Origin: Spinacia oleracea
Taxonomy: Eukaryota > Streptophyta > Magnoliopsida > Caryophyllales > Amaranthaceae
Assembly (NCBI RefSeq): GCF_020520425.1
Contig: NC_079490.1
Coordinates: forward strand, 7,688,001 to 7,752,000
DNA length: 64,000 nt
Direction of reading: 5' to 3'
Under the pieces are notes generated by a model that ran no database searches, was not told the origin of the DNA, and saw nothing but the letters and a program-made list of their open reading frames with translations. Positions 10,269 through 63,614 of this stretch are shown here, one piece after another. The translations under genes and the position numbers were made by a program. Every line of letters begins with the position of its first letter. Position 1 is the first letter of the stretch.

Positions 10269-10921
10269 TGTTAGCTAAATAAGTAATTGGAACGACTTAA
10301 CTGGATATTGCGTAATACGAACTGAAACAATTGTCGTGCCGTGGCCGGACCACTGCTCTAAAAGACAATTCCGCGCTACCTCCGATGCAGTAGAACGCTT
10401 GCGGTTTCCCTCCAGGGTTTACACGACACCGAGAATTATGTGCACTCATAATCCCCGATTGGAGACCAGAATATTTGCCCAGAAAGAGAGGAATTTGAGA
10501 GAGAGATCGATTGTAAGTTTCTGTATATTTTTGTGGAAATGAACGATGAATTTATAGTGAGGCTTTTGGGAAGCTGTAACAGCAAAAAACGGCTAGTGGA
10601 GAAGTTACGGGAGTAATGGGGAACTGCAACAGTCATAAAACGGCTAGTGGGGAGTAATGACGTGATTAATGGATAACCCGGCCCACAAAACCCACCCCAA
10701 GGCCCACGGCCCACGGCCCTCGCCCGAGCCCGGCCCGGCGCGCGCGCGCGTGTGTGTGTTGTGACCACCCATGCCACTCACATGCTTTCTTAAACAAATG
10801 TTTCCCTCAAACCCCCAAATATAAACATTGAATATGGTTTGTGTTTTTCCCATGTGGGACTTTTCATATTCCCACATTTTCCCACTCATTTTCTTTTGTT
10901 TTCTCACTAGGATTTCCAACA
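10269..10921 (-). repeat. LTR of the Copia element (3' LTR in element sense)
   Basis: 653 bp, starting TG and ending CA. It contains a GC-rich run of gcgcgcgc/tgtgtgtg and a CCCACGGCCCACGGCCC repeat. It is shorter than its partner because the partner has extra repeat blocks. Confidence 0.93.
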
Positions 10922-11478
10922 ATCCCCCACAGGTCCGAAGATGAGAAGAAAAAGAAAGAAGTAAAAGAATTGAATTTCTGGGCAAAACAAACAATTGAAT
11001 AGGTGTCAATGTCTTGCGACTTGAATTGACACTTAGTGACATTCAAGCTAGAATCTCTTTCCTACCAAGTGACTTTCGTATTGAACTTAATAGGGGGTTA
11101 GAAACTCATTACTCAAAGCACACAATTGAACATGTATGATATTCTGAATCTCCGCCAATAAAAGTGACGCATTGTACTGGCCATACGTCCATAACCTGGA
11201 TGCTCATAGGTGCTCTAGAGAATAGCCCATGCAATTCTCATAGGAAGCGGCCTCACTTCCACACCTAAGTAGGTGAATCCCATCAAGTGTGAGCTACATC
11301 ACACCACCAAAAATATGGATATGGGTTCATTAAGAGCCGTATGCTCAACCTCGTTCAATAATAGCAAGCACATCATAAACATCTAAGGGATGGACAGAAA
11401 ATAAAATTTGTGCTTCTGAATTATTACATAATGTTCCCCTTTGAACTCATGGTGAGTAGGAGTTCATTACCTTACAAT

Positions 11479-14400
11479 TCATCCAATGGGCCTCATGCCC
11501 ATCCCCTCCGACGTTTCCAAAACTAGTTTCTTACATAGGCCTTTCGTTAACGGATCCGCGATGTTCTTTTCGGACTTGACATAGTCCAGTGATATCACTC
11601 CACTTGACAGCAATTCTTTGACAGCCTTGTGCCTCAAACGAATGTGTCTTTTCTTTCCATTGTAGGCTTGGTTGTTTGCCACGGCAATAGCAGATTGCGA
11701 ATCACAATGAAGTGCAACTGAAGGAGCTGGCTTCCCCCACAGTGGAATATCTGCAAGCACGTTCCTCAACCATTCTGCCTCATGACCTGCCAATTCAAGA
11801 GCAATAAACTCAGATTCCATAGTAGACATAGCAGTACAAGATTGCTTACAGGATTTCCAAGAGACAGCTCCACCCCCTAGGGTGAAGACATAACCACTAG
11901 TGGAGTTGACTTCATCATTTCCAGATACCCAGTTGGCATCACAATAACCCTCCAATGCTCCTGGAAATTTGGAGTAGTGCAATCCCCAATCCATGGTACC
12001 CCTTAGGTACCTAAGCAATCGCCTTAACGCACCCCAATGCTCATTGCTTGGGTTATGGGTGTACCTGCTCAATCTACTTACAGAATAGGCAATGTCAGGT
12101 CTAGTATAGTTCATGAGAAACATAACACTACCAATAATTTTAGCATACTCAGATTGACAAACATGATCACCTTTGTTTTTCTTTAAATGAATGCTTATAT
12201 CATAAGGGGTCTTGATTGGATCGACATAAAATGAATCAAACTTTTTAAGAAGCTTTTCAACATAGTGAGCTTGGCTGAGACAAATGCCATTTGGAGTTCT
12301 AATAATTTTCACTCCCAAAATCACATCTGCCTCACCCATATCTTTCATTTCAAATTTTGAACTCAAGAATTCTTTTGTTTCATTCACTCGATCCAAATCA
12401 GTACCAAAAATTAGCATGTCATCCACATAAAGACAAATAATCACACAACCAGAAGAATCATGTTTATAATAAACGCAAGAATCACCTTCATTTACATGAT
12501 AGCCATTACTAGTCATGGTCTTGTCAAACTTGTCATGCCATTGCTTAGGCGCTTGCTTAAGCCCATACAATGACTTGACCAGTTTACAAACTTTGTTTTC
12601 TTGACCTGGAACAACAAAACCTTCAGGTTGAACCATATAAATCTCTTCATCTAAATCACCATTTAAAAATGCAGTTTTCACATCCATTTGATGCACAACA
12701 AGATCATGAATGCATGCAAGAGAAATTAAGGTTCTAATGGTTGCAATCTTAGTTACAGGAGAGTATGTATCAAAATAATCAATGCCATGTTTTTGAGTAA
12801 AACCCCTTACCACAATCCTGGCCTTATATTTATCAATGGACCCACATGATTTCAACTTTTTCCTAAAAATCCACTTACAGGTGATGGGTTTACAACCTCT
12901 AGGCAGATCAACCAATTCCCAAGTATTATTACTTAGGATTGACTGAAGTTCGCTATCAATGGCCTCTTTCCAGAAAACTGCATCAACCGACCTCATTGCC
13001 TCTTCATAGGTTCTAGGGTCGTCTTCTAGGATAAATACATACACAAAATCATCAGTAATCAAGAAAGGTTCAGTTAGGAAAGCAGTAACAAAATCATCAC
13101 CATAACTTGTTTCCTTTCTTGCCCTTTTGCTTCTCCTTGGTTCTAAATCAGACTCATTATTAGTAGTGGAACAAGGAGCAATGGGTAAAGCATTAGAGGT
13201 GCTAGAGGATGGTACATCATTACTAATGCAAGAGATCTTTAAAGGAAAAGTGTTTTCAAAAAACTCAGCATCTCTTGCTTCAATAATGTTACCACTTGCA
13301 TAAGAGTTGTTAGCACCTTTAACTAAAAAACGATAAGCAGAACTTTGATAAGCATAACCAATAAAGATAGAATCAACCGTTTTGGGACCAATCTTGTCTC
13401 TTTTGAAACTAGGTAAGGCAACCTTTGCTAAGCACCCCCACACTTTCAAGTATTTCAGGCTTGGTGCTCGACCCTTCCATAGCTCATATGGGGTCTTGTC
13501 CAGCTTCTTGTGAGGCACCCTGTTCAAAACATGACAAGCAGAAAGAATAGCTTCCCCCCACATATTATCAGGAAGCCCAGAACTAATAAGCATTGAATTC
13601 ATCATATTTTTTAAAGTTCTATTTTTCCTTTCAGCAATCCCGTTTTGTTCGGGTGTGTAAGGAGCTGTTGTTTCGTGAACTATACCATTCTGTTCACAAA
13701 ACGCCTTAAGAGTGTTAGGGTCATACTCACCCCCCCTATCACTCCTAAGTCTCTTGATTTTCCTGTCTAGCTGGTTTTCAACTTCAGCCTTGTACTTGAG
13801 GAACATCTCCTCAGCCTCATCCTTAGACCTGAGAAGATAAACCATGGTGAATCTAGAGCAGTCATCAACAAAAGTAATGTAGTATCTTTTACCGCCCCTG
13901 CTTTCATAGTTTTTAAAATCCCCCAAGTCACTATGAACAAGTTCTAGTACTTCTGTCTGTCTATCTATTGATTTAAAGGGTTTCTTTGTAAATTTTGCTT
14001 CAACACATACTTCACATTTTGCAAAATCAGTTTTAGAAAAGCTTGGAATCATGTTCATTTGTTTGAGTCTTTTAATTGAAGCAATATTAACATGACCCAA
14101 TCTAGCATGCCATAAATCAATAGACTCAGCAATATAAGCAGAAGGAGTACTAGATTTCTTATTCATAATTTCAATGGAAACATCAAGAGTAAACAACCCC
14201 CCATTACAAAAACCCTTTCCCACAAATTCCCCATTGTGAGTAATAACTAGCCTATCAGAATCAAAGGACAACTTCAAACCAGCTTTCATAAGTAAACTAC
14301 CGGAAATTAAATTCCTACGCATTTCTGGGACATGCAAAACATTAGTTAAAGTGAGTGTTTTTCCAGAAGTGAGAGTGAGAACGATCTTCCCTTTGCCTTG

Positions 14401-15414
14401 AACAGTTGCAGAAGCAGAGTTACCCATGAATACATTTTCACCATCAGTCTTCTCGTAGGAAGTGAACATTTCTTTGTTGGTGCAAATGTGCCTGGTTGCT
14501 CCTGTATCAACTATCCACTCAGCAACATCACCTGCCAGATTAGCTTTTGAAACAACAGCAATAAAATTGTTAGGATCAGCAACTGCTTCAACAAGGTGAG
14601 CTTGATTCTGATCTGGCTTCTTCTTGACCCTGCAATCCCTGGACTTGTGACCAGCCTTCCCACATTCAAAACAGTTACCCTTAAACTTATACTTCTGAAT
14701 TTTCCCTTGAGGCTTGAACTGACTGCCCTTCCCCTTAAACTTATCAGAATAGAAATTGCCCCTAGGTTCAACCAGATTAGCTTTAGCAGACCCAGAAAAT
14801 ACAAATAGACCCTTATCCTTAATACGGTTCTCCTCCTCAATTTTTAGGTGACCTACGAGTTCCTCTAGGGTAAGGTCTTTCTTCTTATGCATTAACTGGT
14901 TTCTAAAGTCTTTCCATGAGGGTGGCAGTTTCTCAATTAAAACAATAGCAAGAGTTATATCACATATACTCAAACCCTCGGCAGCCATAGCAATACAGAT
15001 ATTCTCATATGCATGAATCTGATCAATAATAGGTTTATCATCTTCAACTTGAAAACCTAACCATTTACTAACACAATAACGTTTCGTACCGGCATCATCA
15101 GTTCCATACTTTTTCTCTAAACCATCCCAAATATCCCTAGCATGATTATAGCCCATGTAAATGTCAAGCAAAACATTCGACATATGATGCAATAGCATTC
15201 CCTTACAGGTTCTATCATCCTTAGCAAACTTAACCTCAAAATCATGCAATTCATCATCATTAACAGGTTTCACAACATCAGAAATAACATACGCAACATC
15301 AATTTGCTCCAAATAAAATCTCATCCTAACAGCCCAACGTTTATAGTTTTTCCCATCAAGAGGTTCCAATTTCGACATATCAGGAATGAGAAATTTCGAC
15401 ATATTCATAGCCAT
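11479..15414 (-). CDS. Copia gag-pol polyprotein (1311 codons)
   Basis: A single open frame in Copia order. The gag domain comes first. A CCHC zinc knuckle ([14 protein letters not shown], ~residue 245) follows, then an aspartic protease (VDTGATRH, ~305). The integrase has an HHCC finger (H..H..CEVC, ~430-465) and a D-D-E core. The reverse transcriptase contains YVDDML and the C-terminus is a Ty1-type RNase H (CDSQSAIA). Integrase before reverse transcriptase is what defines Ty1/Copia. It is an element protein and not a host gene. Confidence 0.95.
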
Positions 15415-15437
15415 AACAGAATAATTGTCTTTTAGAT

Positions 15438-16204
15438 TGTTAGCTAAATAAGTAATTGGAACGACTTAACTGGATATTGCGTAATACGAACTGAAACAAT
15501 TGTCGTGCCGTGGCCGGACCACTGCTCTAAAAGACAATTCCGCGCTACCTCCGATGCAGTAGAACGCTTGCGGTTGCCCTCCAGGGTTTACACGACACCG
15601 AGAATTATGTGCACTCACAATCCCCGATTGGAGACCAGAATATTTGCCCAGAAAAAGAGGAATTTGAGAGAGAGATCGATTGTAAGTTTCTGTATATTTT
15701 TGTGGAAATGAACGATGAATTTATAGTGAGGCTTTTGGGAAGCTGTAACAGCAAAAAACGGCTAGTGGAGAAGTTACGGGAGTAATGGGGAACTGCAACA
15801 GTCATAAAACGGCTAGTGGAGAAGTTACGGGAGTAATGGGGAACTGCAACAGTCATAAAACGGCTAGTGGGGAGTAATGACGTGATTAATGGAGCAGTTT
15901 TCAAAGTTAGTGGGTTGATTAAAACCCACCCCACGCCCGCGAACCGCCAAGTACCAAGTACCAAGTACCAAGTACCAAGGCCCAAGGCCCACGGCCCACG
16001 GCCCTCGCCCGAGCCCGGCCCGGCGCGCGCGCGTGTGTGTGTTGTGACCACCCATGCCACTCACATGCTTTCTTAAACAAATGTTTCCCTCAAACCCCCA
16101 AATATAAACATTGAATATGGTTTGTGTTTTTCCCATGTGGGACTTTTCATATTCCCACATTTTCCCACTCATTTTCTTTTGTTTTCTCACTAGGATTTCC
16201 AACA
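15438..16204 (-). repeat. LTR of the Copia element (5' LTR in element sense)
   Basis: 767 bp, the same family as the LTR at 10269. It carries extra internal repeat blocks: a duplicated 'ggctagtggagaagttacgg' segment and four tandem copies of the heptamer aagtacc near 15950-15980. Confidence 0.93.
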
Positions 16205-16514
16205 GTACCTAGTACCAATTTTACACTTATATTGGAATATTTAATACCAGTTTAATTTTGTTCTTTTGCTTTAAAATATTCATGTTACAAATACTACATA
16301 CGAAACGTCAAAAATAAAATAAAATACTACGTTTTATACATAAAAATAAATAAGAGGGGTATTCGCTTTATTTATTTATTGTTTACCTGTTATTAATCTT
16401 ATTTTCCTCAATAGTCCAAAAATAAAATAAGTTGTTGGCCATTTAACCTGATCAGGCCTAGACTTGAAAACCTCCGAATGTATTATTATTATTTCAAACA
16501 AAAGCCCCATATGT

Positions 16515-18552: not shown

Positions 18553-18861
18553 TGAAGGGAAATAAGTTAGAACGTGACGTATTTTGAGAATTATTGGATC
18601 TTTAACCAATATTGAAGGAGATCGCTCAATAATATAAAAATTAAAATTGTTTCATATTCATGTATATATTCATGTTATTAGTAGATATATTGTTCACCTA
18701 TGCACCGTAAGAACATCTCAAATTAATAATTATACGAAGTATTTGAAAAGTGTAACATTAGTGGTACGGAAATTAGATGGATACGAATTATTTTTTAACA
18801 AAAATATGTATAACATGTCAATAATTTTGGATTACCGTGCATTGCACGGGTCCTATACTAG

Positions 18862-19101
18862 TAGATAAATAAAGACTCAGCCAAAGATAATGATATATAA
18901 ATTTTGCTAGAAAGTAAAAAGATAAATAAAACTCAATAAAAGATAATAAGAGAAAATTAAAAATAGATAAATAAAGACCCGGTAAAAGATAATTTAAGCA
19001 ATTTTTAATAGATAAATAAAGATCCATTAAAAGATAAAAAGACATAAAAGTCTCATAAAAAAATTGATTTTAACCCGTGCATGCACGGGCTTTAAATCTA
19101 G
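18862..19101 (+). mobile_element. 3' tail of a second Helitron
   Basis: Repeats of 'tagataaataaagac..gg(t/a)aaaagata' lead to a hairpin cccgtgc-a-tgcacggg (19074-19089) and a terminal CTAG at 19098-19101 before T. The same tail occurs at 44442-44599. The Helitron ending at 18861 appears to have landed in or beside this one; its own 5' end is not identified. Confidence 0.75.
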
Positions 19102-20702
19102 TAAATACTTAATGTAGAGTACTTGATAATTTACAGCCCATTTTAACCGCGTTCTCTTCACCTTAAAAATACTACGTACTCCTTAAAATGCACATATATA
19201 TACTTTTAGTAAAACACAAGTTACGTACTCCTTAAAATACACATGTATACTTCCTAACACTTTAAAAAACACAAACTTCAATTTACTATTGCTGCAATAG
19301 TGTTGTGCCGATTTTACCCCACCTTTCAACCTTAATTACTAAATTTTCCATGATGTTGGATGATGCCACGTGTTCCATCATCTATCTGCCTTATTTGATC
19401 GTCTTTGTTTCCCCTTTCTCTTTCCTCGACTATGGGATCTTTTTCCCCTTCCATTTTCAACAAACCCTAGCTCTCATCTTTGCAATCTCTTCCTCCCCCT
19501 TCACCTCTCTCCTTCCATCATCCTAGATTTCCAGATCGTCAATCTCCGTTCTTCTTCAAGAGGATGTTAGTTTATGGTGATCGAAGGCCCACATTCGAGG
19601 ATTTTGAGAAGGAGTCCAACTATGGAACCATTGATACATTTGAAGGTGAAAATCGATTGTTTTCGGTAGTTTTGTTCTTGATTTTGCTATTTTAGATTAG
19701 TTAAACTCACTGTCTCCTTCCATTTTCAACCCTAGCTATTCGTTCTCATATGACGAATCTGTTGCTTCGTAATTCGCCTCTTCAATAACCGGCACCCAGG
19801 TTCACTCCTTCTGAATCTCCTCACTATCAGTTCGTCTCTTTCTCCCTGGTATGATTCACCTTTGTCTGGATTTTTTGAATTAGGGTTTTATTTCTTGCTT
19901 TTAATGGTTGATTTGCTTTTAATTGTTGATTTTTTTGAATTATGGCTGGTTTAATTAAATTGGAATATTGATATTATTTGAAACACGACTAAGTTTATTG
20001 GCACATACTTTAGATTAGGAATTGTAATTTGAATTCATCTGGCAGAATTTGGGATCATACTCGATTTCCCATTTTAATTTAGAGAATAAAATTACTCTTC
20101 TTCAATGTCTCCCATCATCACCATAATTGTTGAGGATTTTGGTCACGGGTTTTTGTGAAGGCGGATATATATGAGTTTGTATGATTGTAATTGGAGTTGC
20201 ATTTATATGATTGTAATTGGAGTTGAGTTTATATGATTGGTATTGAGATTTCATGAAGTCTGTTACTTCTAAAGATAAGGTAATACATGAAGACAATTGT
20301 TCCATACTTACCATAAGATAAATACTGGTGCTTGATTTTATAAAGGTGCTTGATTTTATAAGATTCACTTTTATGCCAGATTAACCATTATATGTTGAGA
20401 GTTCTGATACAGGACTTTTCTGCCAAACCTTTTCATTAAGTTGGACCGTAGAAAATCCTGTTTGCCATAACGGTGGGGGTGGAAATTGCGTTACGGAGTA
20501 GATTTTTGTTTTAAGAACCAGAGTTTGTCAAGGCTTATTTTGGGAAGCAATTGTAAATTGCCAAATTTTATCTGAACTGCATTCTATGATGATTTTATAG
20601 TTATCAGAAACAACCTTTTTCTAAATTGACTAGGGTTTATTGCCTACATTATTATCTCCCTTAATTTATTTGAATCTCTGAGTACTCTATTATTGCTTGC
20701 AG

Positions 20703-22084
20703 GTGGTAATTATGAAAATTGTAAGCTATCCCAACATAGTCAATCTTATCGAGGTGATTAATGATCCAGACACAGATCACTTCTATATGGGTATTTTTTC
20801 CACCATTTCCTTTCGTATCACACTTCTGAATTTTTGTTTGTTGGAGGCTAAATGGATCTGGAATTTTTTTTTTTTGGCCTTTTAGTCAATGAAATTGTAA
20901 TTTTCTTTGTTCAGTTGAGTATGTGGAGGGCAAATGGGATTGTGAGGGTGTTGGACCACCTGGTGGCTTAGGGGAAGCTATCATGAGACAATATTTACGA
21001 GATATTGTTTCTGGGTTAATGTATCTTCATTCACATGTAAGATCACTTTAGTTCCATTTTAAATTTTGTTGCCCCCAAGGTCCATATTGGTCTTATTTGT
21101 AATGCGCTTTTCAAAAAAAGTCTGCTTGGTGCTATTTTTTTTTTCTATTCGTATGGTGTTGGGAATCCAGAAGAGTATATGGGGATTCTGACACTTTGTT
21201 TACTGCATTTCCTACATCAAAATCATCTTAAATGTTGTCCCAATGCCTCTAAAAGAGGCTCCTGATCATTCTAGGGTAAAGGAGGATTGGATGTATGTAG
21301 CTTATTTATAAGATGAAAGATAGGTGGTTTCCAATTGATCTGTGATACCCTTAAAAAAAATTTGATCTGTGATTCAAAACAAGAACTGAATACTGCCTCA
21401 CTGCCCTACCTTTTTTCTCAGCGCAAAAAACTGTCTCCTACTTTACATTAAGAAAGAAGTGCAGAGAGTTTGCTGATTTATTTGTAATTTAGCATTAAGA
21501 TGTGAAGTTTACTGCAGTTAATCTCTTTAGAAGTTCGAATCTTATGTAGTTCTCCTGGTGTTTTTCATTTCCAGTTAATCTAAGTCTATGATAGATTGAT
21601 AGGTTGTAATAGATGATCAAGCTTAATGTAGTTATATTTACATTCATAACTTTTTCCACAAAGGTTCAGAATAAGGAGATAAGAGGAATGAACAGGGGAT
21701 TCTTCATACCCATTATTAAATCTGTTATTCCAAACTTAGGGCTTTTTCTTTGGGAGGTGGTGTTGTTCTGTTTAGGTTTCTTTTGGTTATAACTATTTAC
21801 TTTTGACTTGTTCATTAATGCATATTATTGCTGAAAGGAGAAGAAACAATGAGTTTTTTCTAGGAGTTTTTTTTCTTTTTTTTTCTTCTAAATTTGGCAC
21901 TTGAACCATCTGAGTTGTAACTTCATTTTTTCACGTGGCTATTGGCATATATTGAATCTTAACAATTTTCTTTTCTTTTGAGAAACAGAATATAGTGCAT
22001 ATGGACATAAAGACTCAAAATCTTTTGGTTTCGCGTAATGGCACTGTAAAGATTGCAAATTTCAGTGTCAGCCAAGTTTTTGAG
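20703..22084 (+). pseudogene. GRIK/SnAK kinase fragment (three exons)
   Basis: Exon-like blocks 20703-20790, 20915-21036 and 21989-22084 each sit between splice sites and read in phase. They give KIVSYPNIVNLIEVI, EYVEGKWD, GPPGGLGEAIMRQYLRDI, VSGLMYLHSH and NLLVSRNGTVKIANFSVSQ. This is the middle of the plant GRIK (geminivirus Rep-interacting / SnRK1-activating) kinases. In the cell these phosphorylate the SnRK1 activation loop. Here the glycine loop, the catalytic lysine region and the C-lobe are missing. The catalytic loop HGDIKPDN has become HMDIKTQN and the metal-binding DFS has become NFS. One codon at the first junction is lost. It is a captured, non-catalytic remnant. Confidence 0.85.
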
Positions 22085-24230
22085 GTAATGGAATAGTATC
22101 TCATTATATTAAATATCAATTTATTTCTATTCTTGATAACTTTGTGCATGTGATCTTTTCCATTCATTATTTGGTTGAGGATACAATGATTTCATTTGAT
22201 TCTGTTGCAAATGCAAATATATCATAACATTTCTAGAGACAACATGTTAGTACCTACATGCGGAGGTCAGAAGATATGGGAAGTGAAACTATAGTCAATC
22301 TTTTTGTTGACAGTTGTAACTGGGAAGATAATTCTCATAACTTCTATGAATGTTATTTTTGTTTTTAAGTGACCATATACTGATATTACACGTTCTTTGT
22401 GCGCCTTTCTGTTTATCTATCAAGACTATTGTCAATTTGACATCTTTTTTCTTTTCTTTTAATTGTGTGTGTGTGCCCAATTTGTGGATGGCTGACAATA
22501 GTCCACGTAGAGGTACGTGCACCACTTTCAAAACGCAAAGAATTGTATATAAAACGCATATTAAACATTAAAAATAATACGGGAAGCACATCCTTAGTAT
22601 AACCCTCTGTACCCGAAATTTAGGGGAAAAAAATCTCTAGAAATTAAAACTCCTTTGATTTCGCTAATTCAGCAATCAGAGGTTTCTCCGTCTTCCCAAA
22701 CAATCTCAATCTTCATCCCTAAAATATCTCCAAACTACCAGAAAATGAATTTATCCCCAATTTCATCACAGTGTAATTTGTATAGCTTTCTTATACACAA
22801 CCGATTCGATAAAAGGGGTTAAATCTGAAGAAATTTAAATTCGCATGGCACTAGAAATTAGAGAACGAACACGGCGAACACCGAAGAAGAACACATAATA
22901 AAAAATCTTATGTACTAACTTTTTTTAAATTATGTTTGTGGTCTAATGTACGTGTTAGTAAAATTGCCGGTAAATTGAATTGATGTTGGTTTTTGAGAAT
23001 TATATAGCTTATCTCAGGGTTGGTTCGGTTTTTGTGCCTGACATTTTCGGTTTTGTTTCAGATTTGATCATATCTTATTATCTTTTATGGTCTGGGATTG
23101 TGTGTGTTTTATCAATTATTCGTTGCTGGGAAATTGAATCATTGTTGCTTCTTTAGTGTTATTTAGCTTTTTGCTGGGAAATTGAATATTTGGGAGTCAG
23201 TGGTTTCAAGTGAGAGAAAGAGTAACAAGAAGAGGTATCAGTGAGAGGGAGTAAGCCAGCAGTATGGTAGCCATGAGTAGGGCAACGTATGAAGGTGCAG
23301 ATTATCTTTTAGACATGGAATTTTGTGTCTTTAAAATCACCGTATGTAGTCTAGCCTTATTTTATTAAAAGAACAAAGACTTTGGATCAAATATGTAGTA
23401 GTACTTTGAGATTATACGGTGATTAGAATGTATTGGAGTATGGATGTTTTAATTTGTAAATGTAAATATTTTCTTGCTGCTATATAGATTAGTATAGCAA
23501 TTTATGGTAGCGTATAGTGGAGTATTACAATATAGATTAAGTATAGCATACTTGGTTCTCTTTATAATGGCGTGGTAGTACCCTAAATCAAAGTTTTCAA
23601 GAAAAATGGAGTTGGCTTTGCATCAAAACAATACATTAATAGAGATTTCAAATAATTAACCAGAGACCAAACCGATCAGTTAATAATTAACCAGATGTTC
23701 TTCTTTGGAATACATTATGTTCTTATATATTCACTCCATGTTTTTTTAATATATATGTCTAATAATTGATCAGATGTTCTTCTTTGGAATAAATTATGTT
23801 CTTATATATTAACTCCATGTTCTTTCTTTTTTATTATTTGTTTAATAATTGACCTGATGTTCTCTTTTGGGATATATTATGTTCTTATATATTCACTTCA
23901 TGTTCTCTTTTTTAAACGGAGCAATACTAAAGAACGTCAGCCTCCATGTTACGGAGTACTAAGTATGTGTTATTTTATACGTATTATCTTCGTACAAACG
24001 TCTTGCTTGTATGTTCCTTAGTAATATCTTGTATGTTCTTCATGATAATACATACTAGCAACAAAAAAATAAGATTCAGACCTAAACTAAAAACTAATAA
24101 AGATTGAATTGATATCACTGAACTACACATATATAATCCGCAAAATCAAAATTAAATTGTAAACCCTTTTCATTAGACTTTTTTTTTATTCAACCGAAGT
24201 TCTGATCTACTTATTAAAACTATTTGCCAG

Positions 24231-25098
24231 ATGGAATCTTGCTTCTTGAAGCTAATAGAATGTTCAGAGCTGGAGGATATTTTGTATGGGCAGTATTGCC
24301 AGTCTATAAACTTGAAGATAACTTGCAAAAGCAGTGGAAATGTATCATTATTATTTACTTACACATGCATTTCCTGCTTCATAAGTAGGGAATTACCAGT
24401 GCTTACCTTTTTTATCACCGTTTTCCCTTCCTCCCCCTTCTTAAGACTTTTGAGTTTGCTTGAAATCCCTTACTTAAATTCAAAGTTTCCGCTGGTCAAT
24501 ATTTGAGTTGTTAATTTAGATTTCATGGAATCTGATACTCTTCAAGATAGGAACATATTTATTTATGCTTTTTTCTCTTTTTACTTATAAATCTACAGAA
24601 ATGGAGAATCTTACGTCCCATATTTGCTGGGAACTGGTAAAAGGGAGGGTTATATTGCTATATGGAGGAAGCCTTTGAACAACATTTGTTATCTGAATCG
24701 TGAAGTTGGTGCGAAACCTCCACTTTTTGACCCGAACAATTATCGAGACAGTGTCAGGTATTGACCAAAAATGCTTTTGTATATTTATGATAGTAGTGGA
24801 GAACCAACCTGTGAGTTCTCCTATGCCATATTCCATAATCAAGGAGATATATCTGGGTTGCCTGGACCAAGATTCTGTTTTTGTTTCCCTCAAAAAAAAA
24901 GATTCTGTTTTTGTTAGCCTTACTATTTCATCCAGTCCGCTGTTAAGATGATTGAAGCTCTTTCTTCAGGATGATTCCTTTTATTTGTTAATGAGATGTT
25001 ATTCCGCAACTACCTCTTTAGTAGAATGACTAATTCAATTCACGAATTTTGGCAGGCATGTGGGACAGAAGGTCTGTATTACAAGGGTACCTAATAAC
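24231..25098 (+). pseudogene. PMT-type methyltransferase fragment (QUA2/PMT10-11-like)
   Basis: Three blocks are seen. 24231 to about 24341 reads [19 protein letters not shown]. 24599-24757 reads [19 protein letters not shown] and [17 protein letters not shown]. 25056 to about 25098 reads VCITRVPNNG. These match the C-terminal half of the S-adenosylmethionine methyltransferase domain of plant Golgi PMT proteins, thought to act on pectin. Exons keep their splice borders (CAG acceptors; GTATTG donor after 24757). The membrane anchor and most of the domain are absent. The last block runs straight into kinesin-like sequence in another frame. It is a captured fragment inside the Helitron. Confidence 0.85.
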
Positions 25099-25099
25099 G

Positions 25100-25192
25100 G
25101 ATGTGAATGTTGTCGGAGAGAGAATAAGTACCCTCAATTTTGCAGAGAGGGTTGCCTCTATAGTACTTGGAGCTGCTCGAGCTAACACTTGA
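25100..25192 (+). pseudogene. Kinesin-14 motor-domain end fragment
   Basis: The frame reads DVNVVGERISTLNFAERVAS then IVLGAARANT and a stop. This is the end of the kinesin motor core in plant KIN-14 proteins (family form: 'GETISTLKFAERV..VELGAAR'). It is only about 30 codons and follows the methyltransferase fragment with no spacer, so the two were fused before or during capture. It has no function by itself. Confidence 0.75.
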
Positions 25193-25838
25193 ACGTGAAG
25201 CAAATACTATTTTATTGGGTTTGTTCCTTATCTTTTTGCTTCTTTTCATTTTCAAGCCTTAAAACATTTGAACGTGGAGCAAATACTATTTTATTGGGTT
25301 TATTTCCTAATTTTCTGGGTTTATGATTTATACATAGTGTATGATATGTTCTTAATGCTGATTTCACTGAAGAGATTGAGGGCCTTTTGTTGTCCGACTC
25401 ATCTTTTATAATAGATGTGCCTAAGTTGTGTTCATTCGTATATAACATTCATAATCTATCAAACAACTTGTACCCAAGTTGATTGCCATCTTACTTTGGT
25501 ACCATATTAATACCAAGATCTTTTTATTTCTTACATGACAAGGACATTGAAAAGTTAAAGCTCTCATAAATGTCCTGTAGAGAAGGGATCATTGAAGTAG
25601 CTAAATGTATGTTCTCTTCTCTTATCGAATTAATTTTGACTTAGTTTTGTATTTCCCTTTTTTGTTTCCATTTTATAATAAAGGTATTTTTTGTGTTTTA
25701 TTGTCTTGATGTTATACTTCAAGAAATCGAGAAGTTTATAAATAGAACCTAAGCATTAATCTGCGCCTTTTTTCATTGTATTGATGAAAGTCTTTTTTTG
25801 TTTGTTTTTGAATTTCGTGTGGTGTTGGTTTAAGGTAG

Positions 25839-26768
25839 GCTGTATTTTACAAGAGTGAGACTAGGAACTACCCCAAGGGAATACAATGTGCAGATTATGG
25901 GTTCCATTTATTGACTGTCCACGGGCGAGTGGGTTTCATTTATGTTTCTACTCAATATCGCGCTTTATTGTGTGATTATTTGAATGATGGTTATTAGTTT
26001 CTGCTGACTGATATTAGGTCGAGCTCAATTTCTATGATATCAATGGCTCCTCAACTGCCAACGCAGTTTCTTGTTCAGACCCAGTATGTAGTACTATGGT
26101 TCCACCAGCATCGTCTCACTGCTCAGCTGAAAGTAAACAGTGCGGTTACTCGTTTCAATATGGTGATGGAAGTGGGACCTCAGGGTTTTATGTGTCTACT
26201 ATGATGTACTTTTATATGATCTAGGGAGCTCTATGAACGCTAATTCACCTGCCTCTATCGTTTTCAGGTGAGGGGTATTTTTCTGTTCTAATTTGTTTAC
26301 AATGGTAATCTATCTTGCTAACTTTTTTGTAAAGGATAAATATGTATACGAAACTGGTACATTGCAAAATAAATAGTCTACCCTTTAGCAAATTCAGTTT
26401 ATATCTGAACTTACTTTGAAGGAGAAAATTTTCCTATCTATGCTTTTGCTGAATGTTAATGTCTACTCTCCTTGGTTTTCTGTCTTTTACATTTTTCTTT
26501 GTGCTTGTATGTTTTGATTTTAAATCTATGGTTCTGGTGCAGATGCAACAATTATCAATCTGGAGATTTGATCAATTCAGAACGTGCTCTTGATGGGATC
26601 TTTGGTTTTGGTCAGCAGGGCTTGTCCTTTGTATCTCAATTTTCTTCCAGGGTAATAACACCTCAACCATTTTCCCATTTTTGAAAGGAGGAGGAAATGG
26701 TGGGGTTATTCTGGTGCTTGTAAGATTTTGGGCCCAAGTATTGCGTATGGTCCACTTGTGCCATCATA
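25839..26768 (+). pseudogene. Aspartic protease fragment (A1 family, ASPR-like)
   Basis: Blocks near 25839-25907 (LYFTRVRLGTTPREYNVQI), 26018-26267 (SSTANAVSCSDPVC; CGYSFQYGDGSGTSGFYVS) and 26543-26768 ([19 protein letters not shown]; then, with a frame change, KILGPSIAYGPLVPS) follow the plant membrane-linked aspartic protease family in order. Acceptors precede each block. The first catalytic motif DTGSD is replaced by MGSI, and at least two frameshifts and in-frame stops are present. The second catalytic lobe is not included. It is an inactive captured piece. Confidence 0.85.
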
Positions 26769-27516
26769 GTATGTCTCCCAATTCTTTTGAGAACTTCTTG
26801 ATTGTGGATTTTGTTTATTAGTTTCTTTCTTTTATTGTTCTTCTTCCTTTGATGTGCTTTACGGTCAATTATTGAACAAGTCTTGTATCCCCATCCCCCC
26901 CTCAAAAGTATTTTTAACCTTTTACTTCAAAAGCTCAATTTTTGTGGGTTAAACTTAAACCCAACATGTTGTCTACCTTGTACATATGGGCTTTGTCGTA
27001 AGTCATTCAGCCTTCACTGTTTGTAAATTTCATTTTGGATTTTATACATGTGAAAGGGTTGTCATCGAAAATCTGTGCCATTTGCTGAAACAGGACGGTG
27101 CCGCGCTTTGGTGCATAGGTTTTTGGAAGGTTCATAAAGGCCCATGAGTTACAATATTAGGAGGTCATTCGCATGTTTATTTTACTATTTTCCATACAAA
27201 ACTTCCACTAAAGTATATACTTAAATAATACGAAGTATATACTTTAAATGTTCTATGCTGTAATTACTTAGTTAATCCACATACTTGGCAAAAGAATTGC
27301 GAATTTGGAGTTGGGTGAGTGGTTGGCAGTTTTCATCGAAGAGCGGAAAAGAGTTATGTAGCAGTTGAATACTGATCTATTAATAATAATCACCAAGCTA
27401 TAAAGTACATAATTTATGTAGAAAGCAATCCACTATTGTCTTCTTTTGAACTGATCTTATAACTGTGAATTCAGTTGCTTTTCTAATTTCCGTTATTTGA
27501 TATTGCTATTCCACAG

Positions 27517-27850
27517 GGAGGAGAGGATGCTGCCATTGTCAGATACATGTACACAAGGATGACTGAAATCACTAGAGAACTACTAGGAAAGATACTGGAA
27601 TCACTTCACAGTTAGTGGAACTATTGAGGTAGTGGATGTAGACAGTGCAAGTGATGCAAGTGATGCAAGTGAAGGGATGATGTAACTCTCAGAATCACTG
27701 AACTACCAGTTCGGAAGTGGACTCAAGATTATAAGGAATTTTAAAGAGAGACAGAGATCAAATGATGTAGCAAAATTAAATGATGCGGCGAATATTCGGT
27801 GCTAAGGAGTTCTTTGAGATTTTTCAAAGATGCTTCTGATCAGGTATTGA
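27517..27850 (+). pseudogene. DNA topoisomerase II fragment
   Basis: After a CAG acceptor the frame reads GGEDAAIVRYMYTRMTEITR, close to the GGKDAASARYI(F/Y)TRLSPITR block of eukaryotic topoisomerase II. Further on, VSGTIEVVDVD and, after a frame change, LRITELPVRKWTQDYKEF match the family's 'ITELP(V/I)R.WTQDYKEFL' block. The sequence between these two conserved regions in the real enzyme is missing. An inserted GCAAGTGAT repeat encodes SDASDAS. It is a captured, deleted, frameshifted remnant. Confidence 0.75.
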
Positions 27851-28611
27851 TGTACATTTCTCTATTTTCACCGATCGTGGAGTCTAGGACTTCTAACAGT
27901 CTGTGCCTCTCAATTTTGAGTTTCATAAAAAGGTTGTGATTCTTTTCATTCTGTACTTATTGTGCAACTCCTTTAACACCTAAGAAAACTTTAGAAATAT
28001 TTTCAGCAGTAATGTGTAATGAACATGCCTAATAAAGATGATTCAGTTATTTCACCAGGGTTATGTGTGTTTAGTTTTGCAGTCGTTTAGCCGCTACAGG
28101 CATAAGTCACACCTAGCGACATTTATGTTCAACTCTAATATGTAATATCATGTTTGGGGTTATCAGCTTTTCGCTGACAAGAGTCATTAGCAAAGAGGGA
28201 AGCTGATTAGAAATTCTTAGCATTGCTTCTATTTCATTATTTAGCAGTATGTATTGGAAATATAAATGTTGTCATTGAGGATACTCAACATTGTGTCTGT
28301 CACATTAGAAAGGATGGCTGAACTTTGAAGAGACTGCATTTCATCCTAGCGGTTTTAGATTTTGTTTATAGTTCTTGAATAGTGTGAATTTTTTTTAAGT
28401 ACCTACTTTTCTGTGAGTTTTTACAACTTCCTAGGAAAAGAAAGTTTGTTTTAGTTCAACCCCCTGCCTCTCGCTTTGCGTCTACTATGCTGTAAAGTTG
28501 AGCGGTTGTGAACTTAAGAAGTTTGTTCGAGTCTATTAGCTTCCTCAGTTCCTCTTTGTTTATATGAGATGATGTGATGTGCTGCATTTAGAAACTTAAT
28601 TAAATAAACAG

Positions 28612-28805
28612 GCCATGAAGCTTGAAACATAATTCCACAAAAGATCGTGGCTCCCTTGTGGAAAGAGCTTAATCCTGAAGATTGGCATCTCGTGCTATTT
28701 TCAGATTTTGACTTGACTTGCGCAGTTGTTGATTCGTCTGCAATATTAGCTGAAATTGCAATTGCAACAGCAACAGCAACAGCTCTACAAAGCCTTATAT
28801 ATCAG
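28612..28805 (+). pseudogene. TH2-like HAD phosphatase fragment
   Basis: The frame holds APLWKELNPEDWHLVLFSDF and DLTCAVVDSSAILAEIAI. DFDLT is HAD motif I (nucleophile Asp and acid/base Asp). The surrounding sequence resembles the C-terminal thiamine-monophosphate phosphatase domain of the plant bifunctional TH2/TenA protein. The frame then enters a GCAACA repeat and a donor-like GTGATT. Only the first motif of the domain is present. The upstream codons (EAMKLE-like) contain a stop. It is the last recognisable gene piece before the Helitron 3' end. Confidence 0.65.
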
Positions 28806-29188
28806 GTGATTGAGTATGACAGTAGTATGTGTACAATCAATCAATAACTGCAGGATAGACATATTTCTTGCTTCATCATTGATCAACTAAGTAACCATGA
28901 ATCTTTTTTTGCAGAGTCGTATGTTGCCACAAAGTTAGCCGAGGAACTATCATGACTGTTATTTCTCCTTTCTCCTATTAGGCCGGTCTTTTTTAATTTT
29001 TCTAAACTTAGCCATGTAAATTTTTTATGCTTAGCCATGAATTCTATATATGTAAACTACATCAAGTAATTAGTCATGTTTATTATCATCTTCGGAGTAC
29101 TATATTCATGTCTTCAACTATTTCTATAGAGTAATTTGGCTTGTGATTTGTATAGTGTGTTATGGGAGATAGCGTTTTATATCTTGGG

Positions 29189-29223
29189 GGAACGTGCGCG
29201 CTAGCGCACGTTCCAACAACTAG
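29189..29223 (+). terminator. Helitron 3' terminal hairpin and CTAG
   Basis: A perfect palindromic 26-base hairpin is followed after a few bases by CTAG, then host T. In rolling-circle transposition this is the replication stop signal, not a transcription terminator. Confidence 0.93.
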
Positions 29224-29875
29224 TTTAGTAAAAACAAGTTTTATATTTTAGAAAGACGTGTTGGTGATCTCTGACATCAAAACAAGCAAAGATCTTACAA
29301 TTATGAAAGCTAACTACAATGGGATTAATGTCAATCCCCACACACACATGGCTAAATTGTTTCGGGAATGAAGCAATTAATCTTGGATGAGGTTAGTTTG
29401 CTGTATTGGAGAAGACCTTGGTTAAGTCGTGTTTGAGCTCGGATATACCTACATACGAATAAGTTAACTGGTCTCGAGGGAGTTCCAAAAAAAGCCTCTA
29501 CGATGCCTAAGTCAGCTAATGAATTACTATATTTGTATGAAATTCAATAAATGAGCATACCTTAAATTTACCACATAAAATCATAGCCTTTGTAGGCTTT
29601 GATGACAAAAGTTGTTGGGCTTTCTTATAATGGACCGTGGGACGCTTACAGGAACTGAATCCTTTTGATAAACAATATTTAGAAACTTAGTGGGTGTAAC
29701 GGTAAACAGACCCAACTGGGAGCCAATTGGACACCCAAATAATTAACATATGTTAATGGCTTACCATACTTTAGATTACTTTGTCATAGAGGTGATAAAA
29801 AATCCAGGACGGGACGGGCTTTAAGAACAAATTCATGCCCAAATCCATAAATTTTGTACAGGCTTTGTAACACCC
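29224..29875. repeat. Right half of a duplicated locus (copy 1)
   Basis: Closely matches 44757-45395 and, together with 18946-19251 (matching 44442-44756), forms one copy of a ~0.95-kb duplicated segment. Copy 1 is split by the Helitron, copy 2 is not. There is no gene in it. Similarity stops at 29875, where a decayed Copia begins (tgtaacacccc). Confidence 0.9.
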
Positions 29876-32800
29876 CGACTTGTCCTTAGGGACAAGTGTG
29901 CATTGCCTAATTCCTTTGTCGCATGATGCTTGCTCATGAACATAAGGTAAGAGTAGTCATCCTTATTATGTCCAGAGGTATTTCTCGGTTTCAGAGTTCA
30001 ACTAATCACATAAACAGATAATCATAACCTATGATTCATCTGAGCACGGCCATGCATTTTTCAGTTTCTAACTCTCCGAGTGGCCTTGTACAACTTTCAG
30101 CATCTCATCCGGAATTATGGGAGGATAATCCCAATCTTGTTATCTTGAGGTTAGACTTCGTTTGATAGGTGATTACCTGAGCGTTGCCGTTATGGTCTCC
30201 TTTTACGGTGCGACGGTTGACAATGTCAAAGTAACCAATTCTCAAGAAAGTAATCTCAAATCACTCAGGTATTGAGGATTAGTGTCTAATAATGTAATGA
30301 AATTTATTATGACAAATTTTTATCTCTTACAGTAAAGTTTCATAGGTCTGTCCAATACTATTTTTCTCAAAGTAAGTATCTATGCAAATGATTGCGACAT
30401 TGCCATGTCCACGTAGTTCAAGAAACAAAACGACTAGTCATCTTGCATTCTAGTCGTCTAGTGTTTTCTATGCGTCCACCTTTATAGAAAACTTCCGACC
30501 AGAGACCATCTTCAAGTTTTGACATTCAAGTTCACTTGATAGGCATTTCTTAGTCACAGGACTGGTCCTGACAGTCTATCTTGAATATATTTTCAAATTG
30601 AAAGGACTCATCATTTAATACTAAACCAAGATTAAATGGAGTATGAAAAATACATTTCATATATGATAAATGTTCAACCCCAATGTGTTACAACCATGGG
30701 CCTCAAACCCATCTTTAAAACAGTTCATGGAATTCAAAGCTATGCTTGATTTCCAGTGCTACAATGTGAGTGTTGCTCCTCACTTGGTTCATAGGTTTAG
30801 TTATCATTCTTTGCCAATCTTAATATCCTTTTCATCGAATGTTTTTTGAGATAGGATGATAAGATCTTTTGAGTATGTTTATTTTGTGATCTAGTCTTTC
30901 TTGCTACAATAGTGGTTCTACACATTTCGCAATGAAGAACCATCAAGTCAGCAGACATGTGATTCACCCAAGTTCAATGAAGAACTCTTAACGTAAACAA
31001 CCCTGTTTTATTGCTTCTTAGGCAATAAGTACTTTTACTTCAACTGTATAGGTTGCTAGTGATACTTTGTTTGGATTTATTTATCCAAGCAGTTAACAGA
31101 TATGTGGAAGACTTTCCATCTGTATCTCTAAACATAGAAATTAATGTTTAATTTCCCACGCGACAACTCATGTTCTTCAATCCATGTTGCCATTTTAAAC
31201 CACGATGCATATAGCTCATTCTTGCCAATGGTTAACTCCAAATGAATCTTTCTTGATCCTTTGCTAGTGTTTATGCGTGTAGCATCAATATTTAGCATAT
31301 CTTTATTTCCTTGAATCAAGAACTATTCCTATGTACCTTTTCAAGTACCATAAGTTTTTCTTGATCTCAATCTAGTTGATCTTCTCTTAGACCAATAAAG
31401 ATTGGTATATGTTCGTCATGCCTAAAGTCATACGATACATTTTTGGCGATCCTCATATTATATCATACATGATAAATTCTTTTGCAGAATAATTCTCAAT
31501 TGAATTCTATTCATGTAACTTTAGCTCATCTAGTTTCAGTAGATACTAATTTCAGCTAAATTCTTTGACATATAATATAGGTTAAGAATCTCATTTATAC
31601 TCTTTGATGTTTAACTTATTAAATGCTTATACATAGTTCAAACATCTATTACTTAGATTTATTCATATGGGTCGAATGTCTCCAATGGAGTCTTTCGTGT
31701 TTGATTTAGTAATTGCCATTACTTAATTTAAAACAATAATATAAGATCTTTGTAAATAGATCTTAAAACCCAGTGTGTACTAAGTTTCGCCTTGGCCCAT
31801 CATTGATGAATAATTTCAAATCTAAGTCATTAGCATAGAGAGATATGTGTGTGATACACATAGGACCAATTAAGTTTTATGTACTCCCACTAAACTTCTT
31901 ATACATCTATAAGAATCATGTACATTTTATGAAACTAAAATACTTATTAGCTTCACTAAAATACAGTTCCAATTCCCAATTGCTTGCTTAAATCTGTACT
32001 TAGATTTCATAAGCTAGCTTTCCTTTTCAAGTATTTATTTGGATCCACAAATCTTATGACATACCATGTACATAGTTTCTTCCAACATTTGATTGAGGAA
32101 TATGTTTTGTCATCCAATTGCCATATGTACCAATATGCAATCATTGCTTGATTTATAGACTGGAGCATTACGATTTTGCATGAGGTTTCAACACAATCCA
32201 CGCCATGAATTTGCTTGATACCTTTAGCAACTAATCTAGCTTTGTGTTGTGAACACAATTCCATATTTGATGGTTTTTATCCTTAAAACCCATTTGTAAC
32301 CAATAGATGTAAACCATTCTTGCAAATCAACAAAATTTCAATTTTGTCATCAAAACATTGATTATGTTTTATGGCCTTTAACCATCTAAAACATTTGAGT
32401 CTATATATGGTTTCTAACCATTTTAGGGAATCAGGGTTTCGTCATAGTTTTTTTACAAGTCACAAACTCATTAATATACATGATAATAGTTTGACTGCAG
32501 GTTGTAGGTTTCTTCACTATCTAATAGAAGAATCTCATATTTTCAGTGACCTGAACTCTATGTTTCTTCACTATCTAATAGAAGAATCTCATAGTTTCAG
32601 TGACTTGAACTCTATGCCTACTTGGGTATAGAAAATCAAACAATAGAATATCAATAGACACTTGAGAGTCCTTTGAATATTATGTTCTCCTTGAAGCACT
32701 TGTAAAGTCTTCTAAGAGATGTCCATTCTTTAAAGCCACTTTTAAAGTCCTTAAAGAATAAGTGTTCAGATTTTCTGAAGAACTTTGAAAAGCCTCTGCA

Positions 32801-34729: not shown

Positions 34730-35207
34730 TGACACCTGGCACGTATTGCGCCCCCTAAGCAGAAATCATGCGAAGTCTACTCCGGGGCATGAGTATTAAT
34801 CTAGGTATCTACAATGTATGTATTTAAGTATGTATAAATGTACGTATAAAACCTATACCTGGAAAAGGGCTTAATTAGTATGTATCCCAAGTGAATGACT
34901 AAGCACAATAGGCCCAAATAGCCCACTATTGCTAAAAGGGATCAGAGAATTGTAAGGAGAAAGGACACGTGTCCTTCTCCCATTCCCCAGCCAATCATGT
35001 AAGGGGAATATTAGGTCATTCCCACAAAAACCTAGTACTATAAATATTCCCACTTCCCTAGAAAAAGGGGTCACAATCAATACATTCTAGAGCAATTGCT
35101 GCTCTGCCTTCTCTCTACTTTCTCTCTCTATAAAAATACAATCTTGTTTAATCTTTAAAAGTTACCAAGAAACCTCCAAGGTATCTCACCGGAAAAACCC
35201 CACAACA
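34730..35207 (+). repeat. 5' LTR of the Gypsy element (left border approximate)
   Basis: AT-rich with a TATAAATA at about 35039 and a CT-rich segment after it. It ends ...ccccacaaca just before the primer-site motif. The left border is only estimated because no second LTR is available to compare. Confidence 0.6.
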
Positions 35208-35238
35208 TTTGGCGCCGTCTGTGGGGAGGTACGGTAAC

Positions 35239-38200
35239 ATGGAAGATCAACGACAGGACAACGATGCTGGGCGGCCTACGCGCGTAGATCGGCCACCCCT
35301 CGAAAGAGAAATGCCGACTGAACATCACACGCCGGCCACAAGAATCACTGAAGATGCCGCGCGTACATTTGCGGCCGGGCACACCCCTCGTCACACTGCC
35401 GAGGTAGAGGTGCTCAGCGAGGAGGACGACCAGGCCAATCGCACCCCTCCTGGAGGACACCTGGATCCTCGGGTGGATACGGTAATAGAGGAGAACCCTG
35501 ATATGCCTGTCTCTGTGGGTGCTCTTCGGGCTATTTTGGCTGAGTTCCAAGCTGATGTGGGGAAGACAGTTAATGCTGAGGTACAGAAGAGTATGCTGAT
35601 TTACACCACTGCTGTGGCTGCAAATCATGAGAGGCCGGCAAGCAATAGGCCAACACTTTCTTTGCGCCCCCCAAATGTCTGGACCAGGCTGACAGGCGAG
35701 GACCTAAGGAGACAGCCGCCAACAAGTCAGCCCAATCAGGCAATGTCTTACCTACCACGCCGAATGCCACGGCGGCTGATCGGAGAAACGTCCCGAGGAC
35801 GTGAGCAGCCACGCGCAGAGCAGTTGCCTGACTCTGAGTCTGAACTTTCTGACACTGGGTCAACCCCCGTCATGCCGGATAGACCTCTCCCTCATCCAAC
35901 TTATACGCATCTGAGCCAGGCGCGTCCAGGGGCCACCCGTCCAACCCGTCAAACTCGTGGACGCGAGTCCTCCGAGCGGCTACCCTACTCCAGGCGTCAA
36001 GACCCTGTATATCACATTCAGGAGGGGGTGTCCAACATGGCCCTAGGGCACACCACCCCTTTTGCAGACTCCATCATGAGAGCCCCGAGGGAACCCAAAG
36101 TCAAGCCGCCCAACATTGATGCTTACGATGGTACCACCGATCCGGACATGCACCTCTTGGTTTACCGGCATCACATGTATGTCCAAGGAACAACTGACTC
36201 AACCTGGTGTAAGTATTTTCCGGGCACACTCAAAGGAGTAGCCTCTAAGTGGTTCGAGAGACTTCCAGCCGGAACTATTCGCTCTTTTTCGGAGCTCGAG
36301 CTATTGTTCTCTACTCGGTTCATGGCTCACAAGGAAGAGAAGAAGACGAGCATGCATCTGAGTAGGATTCAGCAAGGGAAGGACGAGTCCCTGAGGAGTT
36401 ATGTGAAGAGATTCAATCTAGAGGCAGGGCAAATTCCGGATTTGCCAGATGGTGTTGCATTCGATAACTTCATTCGAGGGCTTAAAAAGGGCTCTTTCAA
36501 GTTTGATCTGGTAAATAAAAGCGTCCGAACAATGGCAGAAGTGCTGGATGAGGCCGAGGCCTTCATTCATGCAACAGAGATTTGCAGCGTCCCGAAAGAC
36601 CCCAGAGGAAGTGATACCGCCGAGCTAGCGGCAAAAAAGGAGAAATTCGAAAAGAAGAACCGGCCTAACGGGACGTGGGCTATTGCAAAAGAGTCAGACA
36701 GGGCCCCCGGAGCGGCAGGTCAGAAACGGCCCAGAACTTATGATCGGGAGCGATTCGAGTATAACACAGACATGTACACAATCTTGATGGACGTCGGGTC
36801 CAAATATGACATTGATCGTCCATTTCCCATGAAGTCACCACCAGAAAGTAGGGACCCCAAACTGTACTGTCACTTTCACAGTGACATTGGGCATGACACC
36901 AATGAATGTAAGAGCTTGAAAAGGGCATTGGACGGCCTAGCCACCAAGGGGTTCTTAAAAAGTTATATCAGCAGGAACACGGGAGGTTCTGGCAAACCCT
37001 TCTACAAGAAAAACAAATCCCCTCCCTCGGAGGAAGATGGGAATCGTACCGACCCAGAGTGCGTGGCAGTCATCTTAGGAGGATTGGCCGCCGGCGGGCC
37101 GACCATGAGGGGCCAGAAGGATTATGCCAAGCGATTGGGGCAAGTGATGCTGTCCGGCAAGGCCACAGTTGACCCGTTTCCAAAAGTGGAAATCGGCGAG
37201 GCCGACCGTGGGAAAATCTCCACCCCGCATGACGATCCTTTGGTAATTGAGTTAAAAGTTGCTAACCTAAGGGTTAGGCGTATTTTGGTTGATACAGGAA
37301 GTTCGTCGGACATAATTAGTCTAGAGTGCTTGAATCGGCTGCAACATGATCCCTCAAAGATTGAGAAAATCCACTATCCCATTATAGGCTTCGGAGGTAG
37401 TGTCATCCACCCAGTCGGCATAATTACCCTTCCTCTGAGGATGGGAAATAAAAAGGAATCTCGGCAAATGGATGTCCGTTTTCTCATAGTGAAAGATCTG
37501 ACGGCATATAACATCATCTTGGGGCGTCCCACGTTGAACAGGGCAAAGGCTGTCATTGTAACTCATCTGATGCTTCTTAAGTTCATTTGTGACGATGGGA
37601 GCGTCAGCACTATACATGGTGACCAGCAACAAGCTAGAGATTGCTACCTAACCACCTTGAGTCCAGAAGCATGGGGGATGGGTGAAGAGAAAGGGACGTC
37701 GAGCAACAAACGAAAATGTGGCGACACGCAACCCAAGGTCATCAAAGAAACATTAACTATCTCAGCAGGGCACATGGAAGAGAGACGCCCAGAGCCTGTT
37801 GGGGCCCATTTCAATGTGGTTTTAAACACAGATAAACCTGACAGAGTAGTGCCCATCGGGATTTCTCCTGACGACCCGCTGGCGGCAGAGTTGGTCCACC
37901 TTTTGAGAGAATTTGAAGATATCTTTGCTTTCACGGTGGACGAAATGCCGGGTATTGACCCCGTTGTGGCCGTCCATAAGCTGAATGTGGACCCAAACTT
38001 TAAACCGGTTCGTCAGAAGAAAAGGAACCATGGGGAAGATAGAAATCAGGCGGCAGCCGCGGAAATACAAAAGTTGATGGAGGCTGGGTTCGTCAGGCCT
38101 AGTCAGTACCCCGACTGGGTTGCTAACGTGGTCCTCGTCAAAAAACCTAATGGTACCTGGAGAATGTGTGTTGATTACACCAACCTCAATAAGGCATGTC

Positions 38201-43726: not shown

Positions 43727-43841
43727 AGCTCTCTTCTTCAGCTGGGACAGAGTCGTCCCCTTCTTCTTCCCTGACGCCCTAGCCGCGTCCTTAGCTTGCT
43801 AAAAAAGAAAGTAAAGGACGGTCAAATATTAGGCCTCGTCA

Positions 43842-44441
43842 TCTATCGCAAGTCACTCATCATATAGTGGCTCGTCATTAAAAAAGGACGCCCATCTTAA
43901 AAATGACGGCGTACCTGATCAATCACGAGTCACTCACCATGTAGTGGCTCGTCATTAAAAAGGACGCCCATCTCAAAAATGACGAGGCGTACCTCATCCA
44001 TCACAAGTCACTCACAGAATAGTGGCTCGTCATTGAAAAGGACGCCCGTCTCAAAATGACGAGGCGCACCTTATCAATCACAAGCCACTCACAGAACAGT
44101 GGCTCGTCATTAAAAAGGACGCCCGTCTCAAAAATGACGAGGCGTACCTTATCAATCACAAGTCACTCACAGAACAGTGGCTCGTCATTAAAAAGGACGC
44201 CCGTCTCAAAAATGACGAGGCGTACCTCATCAAATCACAAGTTACTCACAGAATAGTGGCTCGTCATTGAAAAGGACGCCCGTCTCAAAATGACGAGGCG
44301 CACCTTATCAATCACAAGTCACTCACAGAACAGTGGCTCGTCATTAAAAAGGACGCCCGTCACAAAAATGACGAGGCGTACCTTATCAATCACAAGTCAC
44401 TCACAGAACAGTGGCTCGTCATTAAAAAGGACGCCCGTCTC
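43842..44441. repeat. ~78-bp tandem satellite array
   Basis: About seven to eight copies of a unit containing 'agtggctcgtcattaaaaag' and 'gacgcccgtctcaaaaatga'. The array ends abruptly at 44441, where Helitron-tail sequence begins. It lies upstream (in its own sense) of the antisense ORF. Confidence 0.92.
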
Positions 44442-54134: not shown

Positions 54135-54173
54135 ATCATCAAAAACATTTGGGTTAACATGTTATGTATAGAA

Positions 54174-63571: not shown

Positions 63572-63614
63572 AAGTAACAACGCCATATAATCAGTTCATC
63601 ACCAGCAAGAAAAA

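Follow-up and report, generated by a model that had tools for sequence, protein, structure and literature searches.

A probable non-autonomous Helitron carrying fragments of several host genes in the spinach genome

Termini of the element

The DNA considered here is a stretch of 64,000 nucleotides from spinach (Spinacia oleracea; assembly GCF_020520425.1, contig NC_079490.1, positions 7,688,001 to 7,752,000), hereafter the window, within which all coordinates are counted. On its plus strand, a segment of 9972 bp at 19252-29223 begins with TC, ends with CTAG, and carries pieces of several host genes. This segment is very probably a non-autonomous, gene-capturing Helitron of the spinach nuclear genome. 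The original prediction, made from the letters alone, had placed a Helitron of about 10 kb at exactly these coordinates, with a perfect 3' hairpin followed by CTAG and then T, and both claims were borne out.

Direct reading places the TC of the 5' terminus (19252-19275) at 19252 and the CTAG at 29220-29223, followed by T, and the segment thus has the TC and CTRR ends of a canonical Helitron. The 3' terminus (29189-29223) consists of a hairpin, a 5-nt spacer, and CTAG. The hairpin (29189-29214; 26 nt in all) has a perfect 11-bp stem and a 4-base loop and ends 9 bases before the 3' terminus. Its folding energy as DNA is -15.7 kcal/mol, whereas 200 shuffles average -5.1 (z -6.6) and none of them folded as well. 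The palindrome of canonical Helitrons is described as about 16-20 nt long and set about 10-15 bp before the 3' end (PMC2267711); the hairpin observed here is such a palindrome, slightly longer and nearer to the terminus than the published ranges. A scan of both strands of the window for a hairpin followed by CTRR and T returned seven matches, of which the only one inside the element is its 3' end. First-order Markov sequences of 64 kb, simulated as a null, yielded 0.25 matches on average, and none with a stem of at least 9 and at least 6 G/C in 20 simulations. Other matches in the window lie at 29878-29910 (one) and at 48425-48469 (two that overlap, within a tandem array). The first and last 30 bases of the element are not inverted copies of each other, and there is no target-site duplication beyond a single shared T, as is expected of a canonical Helitron.

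Insertion site and a paralog of the flanks

The sequences on either side of the element recur, joined and without it, at 44443-45394 on the plus strand. The left flank (18948-19251, aligned to 19243 in a first comparison and to 19251 in the joined alignment) is 95.7% identical to the paralog over 18948-19243 versus 44443-44740, and the right flank (29224-29866) is 92.4% identical to 44753-45394. When the two flanks are joined and aligned to the paralog, 889 of 943 aligned columns are identical and 13 are gap columns; the junction itself is gap-free, and to the left of it a C/G mismatch lies two bases away and a 4-base gap nine bases away. As for the claim of a preserved empty site nearby, the flanks are contiguous at 44443-45394 without the element; this copy is a duplicate of the flanks and not the ancestral site itself.

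Comparison of the flanks and the paralog points to insertion between two T residues (T|T). This cut was chosen because, when the T residues are counted, it is the only one that yields both TC and CTAG. It is preferred to insertion at the canonical A|T, with which the element would begin with CTT and the joined site would be two bases shorter than the paralog. Published accounts of Helitron targets differ: one states that insertion is always at A|T (PMC4067079), another that it is not always at AT (PMC2267711), and for Helraiser 46 non-AT insertions are reported, with TT, AC, and AA as the most prominent alternatives (PMC4778049). The A|T rule is here treated as a strong preference, to which the apparent T|T target is an exception of a kind already in print.

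The three remaining matches of the hairpin scan, at 18835-18861, 19074-19101, and 44571-44599, are Helitron-type 3' ends on the plus strand but of a different type (a CCGTGCA/TGCACGG hairpin, an 8-nt spacer, CTAG, and T). The first two lie just upstream of the element, which is therefore inserted beside older Helitron-type ends. On its left side the paralogous copy of the flanks borders on a 78-bp tandem array.

Captured gene fragments

Gene fragments were mapped by tblastn searches of the window with database proteins and by Pfam and PDB searches of the pieces, with exon edges set by eye. By this fragment-to-parent comparison, which had been proposed as a check, five fragments were mapped, all on the plus strand and with exons in the order of the parent genes. 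Four of them match named spinach proteins, and the fifth, from DNA topoisomerase II (TOP2), matches TOP2 of other plants.

The first is a GRIK-type kinase fragment of three exons and their introns (20699-22084) that corresponds to residues 173-276 of spinach GRIK1 (P0012), with exons at 86.7, 92.7, and 93.8% identity; Pfam assigns it to Pkinase (1e-19), and a PDB search likewise indicates a kinase. It is followed by a PMT-type methyltransferase fragment in three exon pieces (24230-25101) that corresponds to residues 322-427 of a spinach protein (P0044) and has a frame shift near 24640. Pfam Methyltransf_29 matches it at 6.4e-26 when the exons are joined and the shift is skipped, and at 4.4e-9 on the unaltered open reading frame (ORF) at 24218-24385. 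Its third piece is weak (residues 413-427, that is 15 residues, at 60% identity; E 0.5). Downstream, at least five exon pieces of an aspartic proteinase 36 (AP36) gene (25839-27165) correspond to residues 95-431 of spinach P0001, with about 297-399 unmatched. The best piece reached 1.4e-38 and the joined exons matched Pfam TAXi_N at 3.9e-19; a PDB search with the proteinase piece gave no match. In the TOP2 fragment (27514-27741), residues 718-743 (E 0.007) of P0142 are joined to residues 832-865 (E 1.2e-7), and the stretch between them is absent. The PDB search found TOP2 chains (best 3.9e-8), and the Pfam score (2.4e-4) was below that database's cut-off. The fifth fragment, from TH2, a bifunctional protein of the thiamine pathway (28612-28940), matches residues 254-300 of spinach P0121 at 87% identity (2e-20); P0121 was also the top match of a protein-database search, and the piece had no significant Pfam match. 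A second TH2 exon, placed by eye, would begin at 28916.

A sixth fragment is probably the end of a kinesin motor (25101-25186), fused directly to the PMT exon piece, with one point at which the two readings overlap. Compared with the motor end of KIFC3, this piece of about 25 residues ranked first among 3329 ORF pieces of the window (41, against 32 for the next). Alone it had no Pfam or PDB match, and the 57 proteins from a protein-database search included no kinesin. The kinesin-14 class of the fragment is assigned solely through its resemblance to KIFC3, which we take to be a kinesin-14. For both TOP2 and the kinesin, protein searches did not retrieve a spinach parent.

On this evidence the gene pieces are real, the five mapped by tblastn being strongly and the kinesin moderately supported. 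The six fragments of the original prediction are recovered with that difference in strength; in correction of it, AP36 and TOP2 contain internal gaps and the third PMT exon is a weak match.

Near the 5' end, 19565-19663 is a short possible exon and may be another captured fragment; it matched no Pfam family and had no recognizable match in a mixed-query protein search. A stretch of about 1.7 kb of the element without an assigned source (22500-24200) includes an 83-bp repeat with about three copies (23680-23914).

Coding capacity

Domain searches covered every stop-to-stop ORF of 70 residues or more in 19200-29240, 19 in number, and one of 56 residues (range 56-126). None of these 20 ORFs contained a Rep/helicase domain, and the element is therefore regarded as non-autonomous. 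The scan recovered the proteinase and methyltransferase pieces again, together with two sub-threshold matches (E 0.03 and 0.053), both to unrelated families, that were taken as chance. No fusion-like protein was present among 120 listed matches of a total of 1056 (candidates of about 210-668 residues). Scans of the window with Rfam, at its gathering threshold, and for tRNAs found nothing.

Introns, decay, and origin of the cargo

At the 14 exon edges examined, all set by eye, 13 upstream edges have an AG in place or at most 4 bases away. A GT donor is clear downstream of one proteinase exon, of PMT exon 2, and of GRIK exons 2 and 3, while the donors of GRIK exon 1, PMT exon 1, and TH2 exon 1 are one base off; the remaining seven downstream edges are fusion points or show no clear donor at the stated place. 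Fragments on one strand with splice borders had been predicted, and the shared strand and the introns were found, but clear borders exist at some edges only. The kinesin piece, lying fused within a PMT exon, lacks separate splice borders, contrary to that claim. Most of the fragments retain introns between their pieces; these indicate capture from genomic DNA rather than from cDNA, and they rule out retrocopies. The frames of the fragments carry stops and shifts; the captured pieces are decayed and most likely make no protein.

Candidate parents were ranked by summed bits among 177 proteins tested. Spinach proteins ranked first for PMT, AP36, and TH2. For GRIK, four other proteins (206.4-209.1) scored marginally above the spinach protein (206.0), which had the highest identity (91.3%) among the best six, and for TOP2 the best six were all from maize. 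Residue sharing was then counted in the four fragments with spinach parents, TOP2 and the kinesin being left out. At eleven residues the fragments agree with spinach alone (GRIK 1, PMT 3, AP36 5, TH2 2), as against two at which they agree only with all outgroups (GRIK 1, PMT 1); another 47 occur in the fragments alone, and 39 gapped or mixed columns were excluded. PMT says little about timing because its outgroups are only one other protein and Nepenthes; without it the count is 8 to 1. The ratio of 11 to 2 favors capture within the spinach lineage.

The parents are listed on contigs of 136.5 Mb (GRIK), 114.8 Mb (PMT), 127.4 Mb (AP36), and 37.9 kb (TH2), and the cytochrome P450 gene of the window on one of 189.1 Mb. 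If these contigs belong to one assembly, a natural cluster of the captured genes is unlikely, since the contigs listed for the GRIK, PMT, and AP36 parents differ in length.

Interpretation and alternative explanations

The termini, the hairpin, the lack of a target-site duplication and of terminal inverted repeats, and the paralog without the element all fit a Helitron, and together with the gene pieces they support the predicted capture of several genes in one orientation. Several observations weigh against this interpretation. The target appears to be T|T instead of A|T, and the 5' boundary is drawn from the TC rule and the paralog alone. The element was read from one copy. Its first 25 bases resemble the flanking repeat (score 11.5), a level that one of 495 further 40-base segments of the element attains. 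Finally, the 1.7 kb mentioned above and about 1.2 kb at 19300-20500 have no assigned source.

Pack-MULEs, too, carry fragments of plant host genes (PMC13317346), and the segment could in principle be a terminal inverted repeat transposon of this type, or a CACTA or other Pack-TYPE element, moved by cut and paste. The ends make this very improbable: in addition to the terminal bases and the single shared T described above, a comparison of the first with the last 300 bases finds exact inverted words of at most 8 nt, a length that 148 of 200 shuffles reached. The same comparison, limited to exact words, bears on a rolling-circle element of the Helentron type, whose subterminal inverted repeats would be expected to exceed chance. 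Helentrons are reported to prefer TT (PMC4067079), which would suit the target proposed here from a single insertion, but the segment has TC and CTAG ends, and a Helentron is thus a highly unlikely identity for it.

A mosaic of unrelated genomic pieces, with internal gaps in AP36 and TOP2 and a point of overlap between PMT and the kinesin, might also arise as filler DNA at a double-strand break, in which case the Helitron-like ends would be fortuitous and the segment would not be one transposition unit. There is little to recommend such a patchwork, given that the ends coincide exactly with the breakpoints set by the paralog and that a hairpin end of this kind is rare by chance. An assembly artefact is the least credible explanation of all, as the junctions fall at Helitron signals and the exon order follows that of the parents. 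Two nested Helitrons were also considered and rejected, only one hairpin with a CTRR end being present within the element.

For the favored Helitron, a route of capture can be proposed from work on other Helitrons. An autonomous relative would have supplied Rep/helicase in trans and the donor element would have been nicked, after which one strand may have been copied past its normal stop, or the template may have switched, so that one or more rounds added genomic DNA of several genes. The final element would then have entered AT-rich DNA at a T|T site, next to the older Helitron-type ends. In Helraiser, the 3' hairpin is reported to serve as a terminator, and flanking DNA is transduced when the hairpin is read through (PMC4778049). 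It is unlikely, if somewhat less so than the rival origins above, that transcription starting in the 5' region of the element runs through the sense fragments and gives spliced chimeric RNAs, or that the element yields small RNAs acting on the donor genes. If it were, one Helitron would couple six otherwise separate loci.

Relation to known Helitrons

Neither the class nor the proposed mechanism is new, and the element is a further case of a kind that is best known from maize. Its closest likeness is to the maize HelA Helitrons, which also have TC and CTAG ends, a 3' palindrome, and several gene fragments. HelA elements are described as holding 0 to 12 gene fragments, with a mean of 3, and stepwise capture has been proposed for them (PMC3288121, PMC2267711). 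The spinach element differs in its donors and in its target (T|T versus A|T in maize). Multiple fragments per element are likewise described for Brassica napus, where 35.25% of 1793 gene-capturing Helitrons have at least two; there the captured sequences average 230 bp, and the species and donors are others (PMC11986588). The suggestion that this set of genes might be undescribed is accordingly narrowed: its kind is ordinary, and no description of the element itself was found in the titles and abstract openings of open-licence literature on Helitrons in spinach or Caryophyllales.

In spinach, HelitronScanner is reported to predict 1297 Helitrons amounting to 9,049,533 bp (PMC6337768), a mean, by division, of about 7 kb. 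That set shares species and class with the present element, but it is known here as counts, without captured genes or verified ends. By contrast, the text of another survey places a single Helitron cluster only in beet and not in Spinacia, although values of 0.01 appear in its table past the first columns (PMC7840529); as far as these parts of the two surveys go, they disagree on the amount of spinach Helitron DNA. The element offers a clean, end-to-end case of multi-gene Helitron capture outside maize, and its named donors and element-free paralog make it usable for dating the captures singly and for testing for chimeric transcripts or donor silencing.

Other features of the window

A Copia polyprotein on the minus strand (11479-15465) is a single uninterrupted frame of 1328 residues, and similar-looking ORFs on both sides of it (10436-11042 and 15605-16208) are probably its long terminal repeats. 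Gypsy-type polyprotein frames occur at 35152-41000 and 43841-44441, and a minus-strand ORF at 46950-47354 with a reverse-transcriptase zinc-binding domain (Pfam zf-RVT, 1.9e-7) is probably a retroelement remnant. An ORF at 54172-54600 has a cis-prenyltransferase domain (Pfam Prenyltransf, 1.5e-24), and an N-terminus resembling that of this ORF, with no Pfam match, is encoded at 63591. The P450 gene (7064-9671) is CYP76AD-like; its product is identical over 498 residues to a spinach CYP76AD1-like protein (P0178) and 89% identical to beet CYP76AD5.

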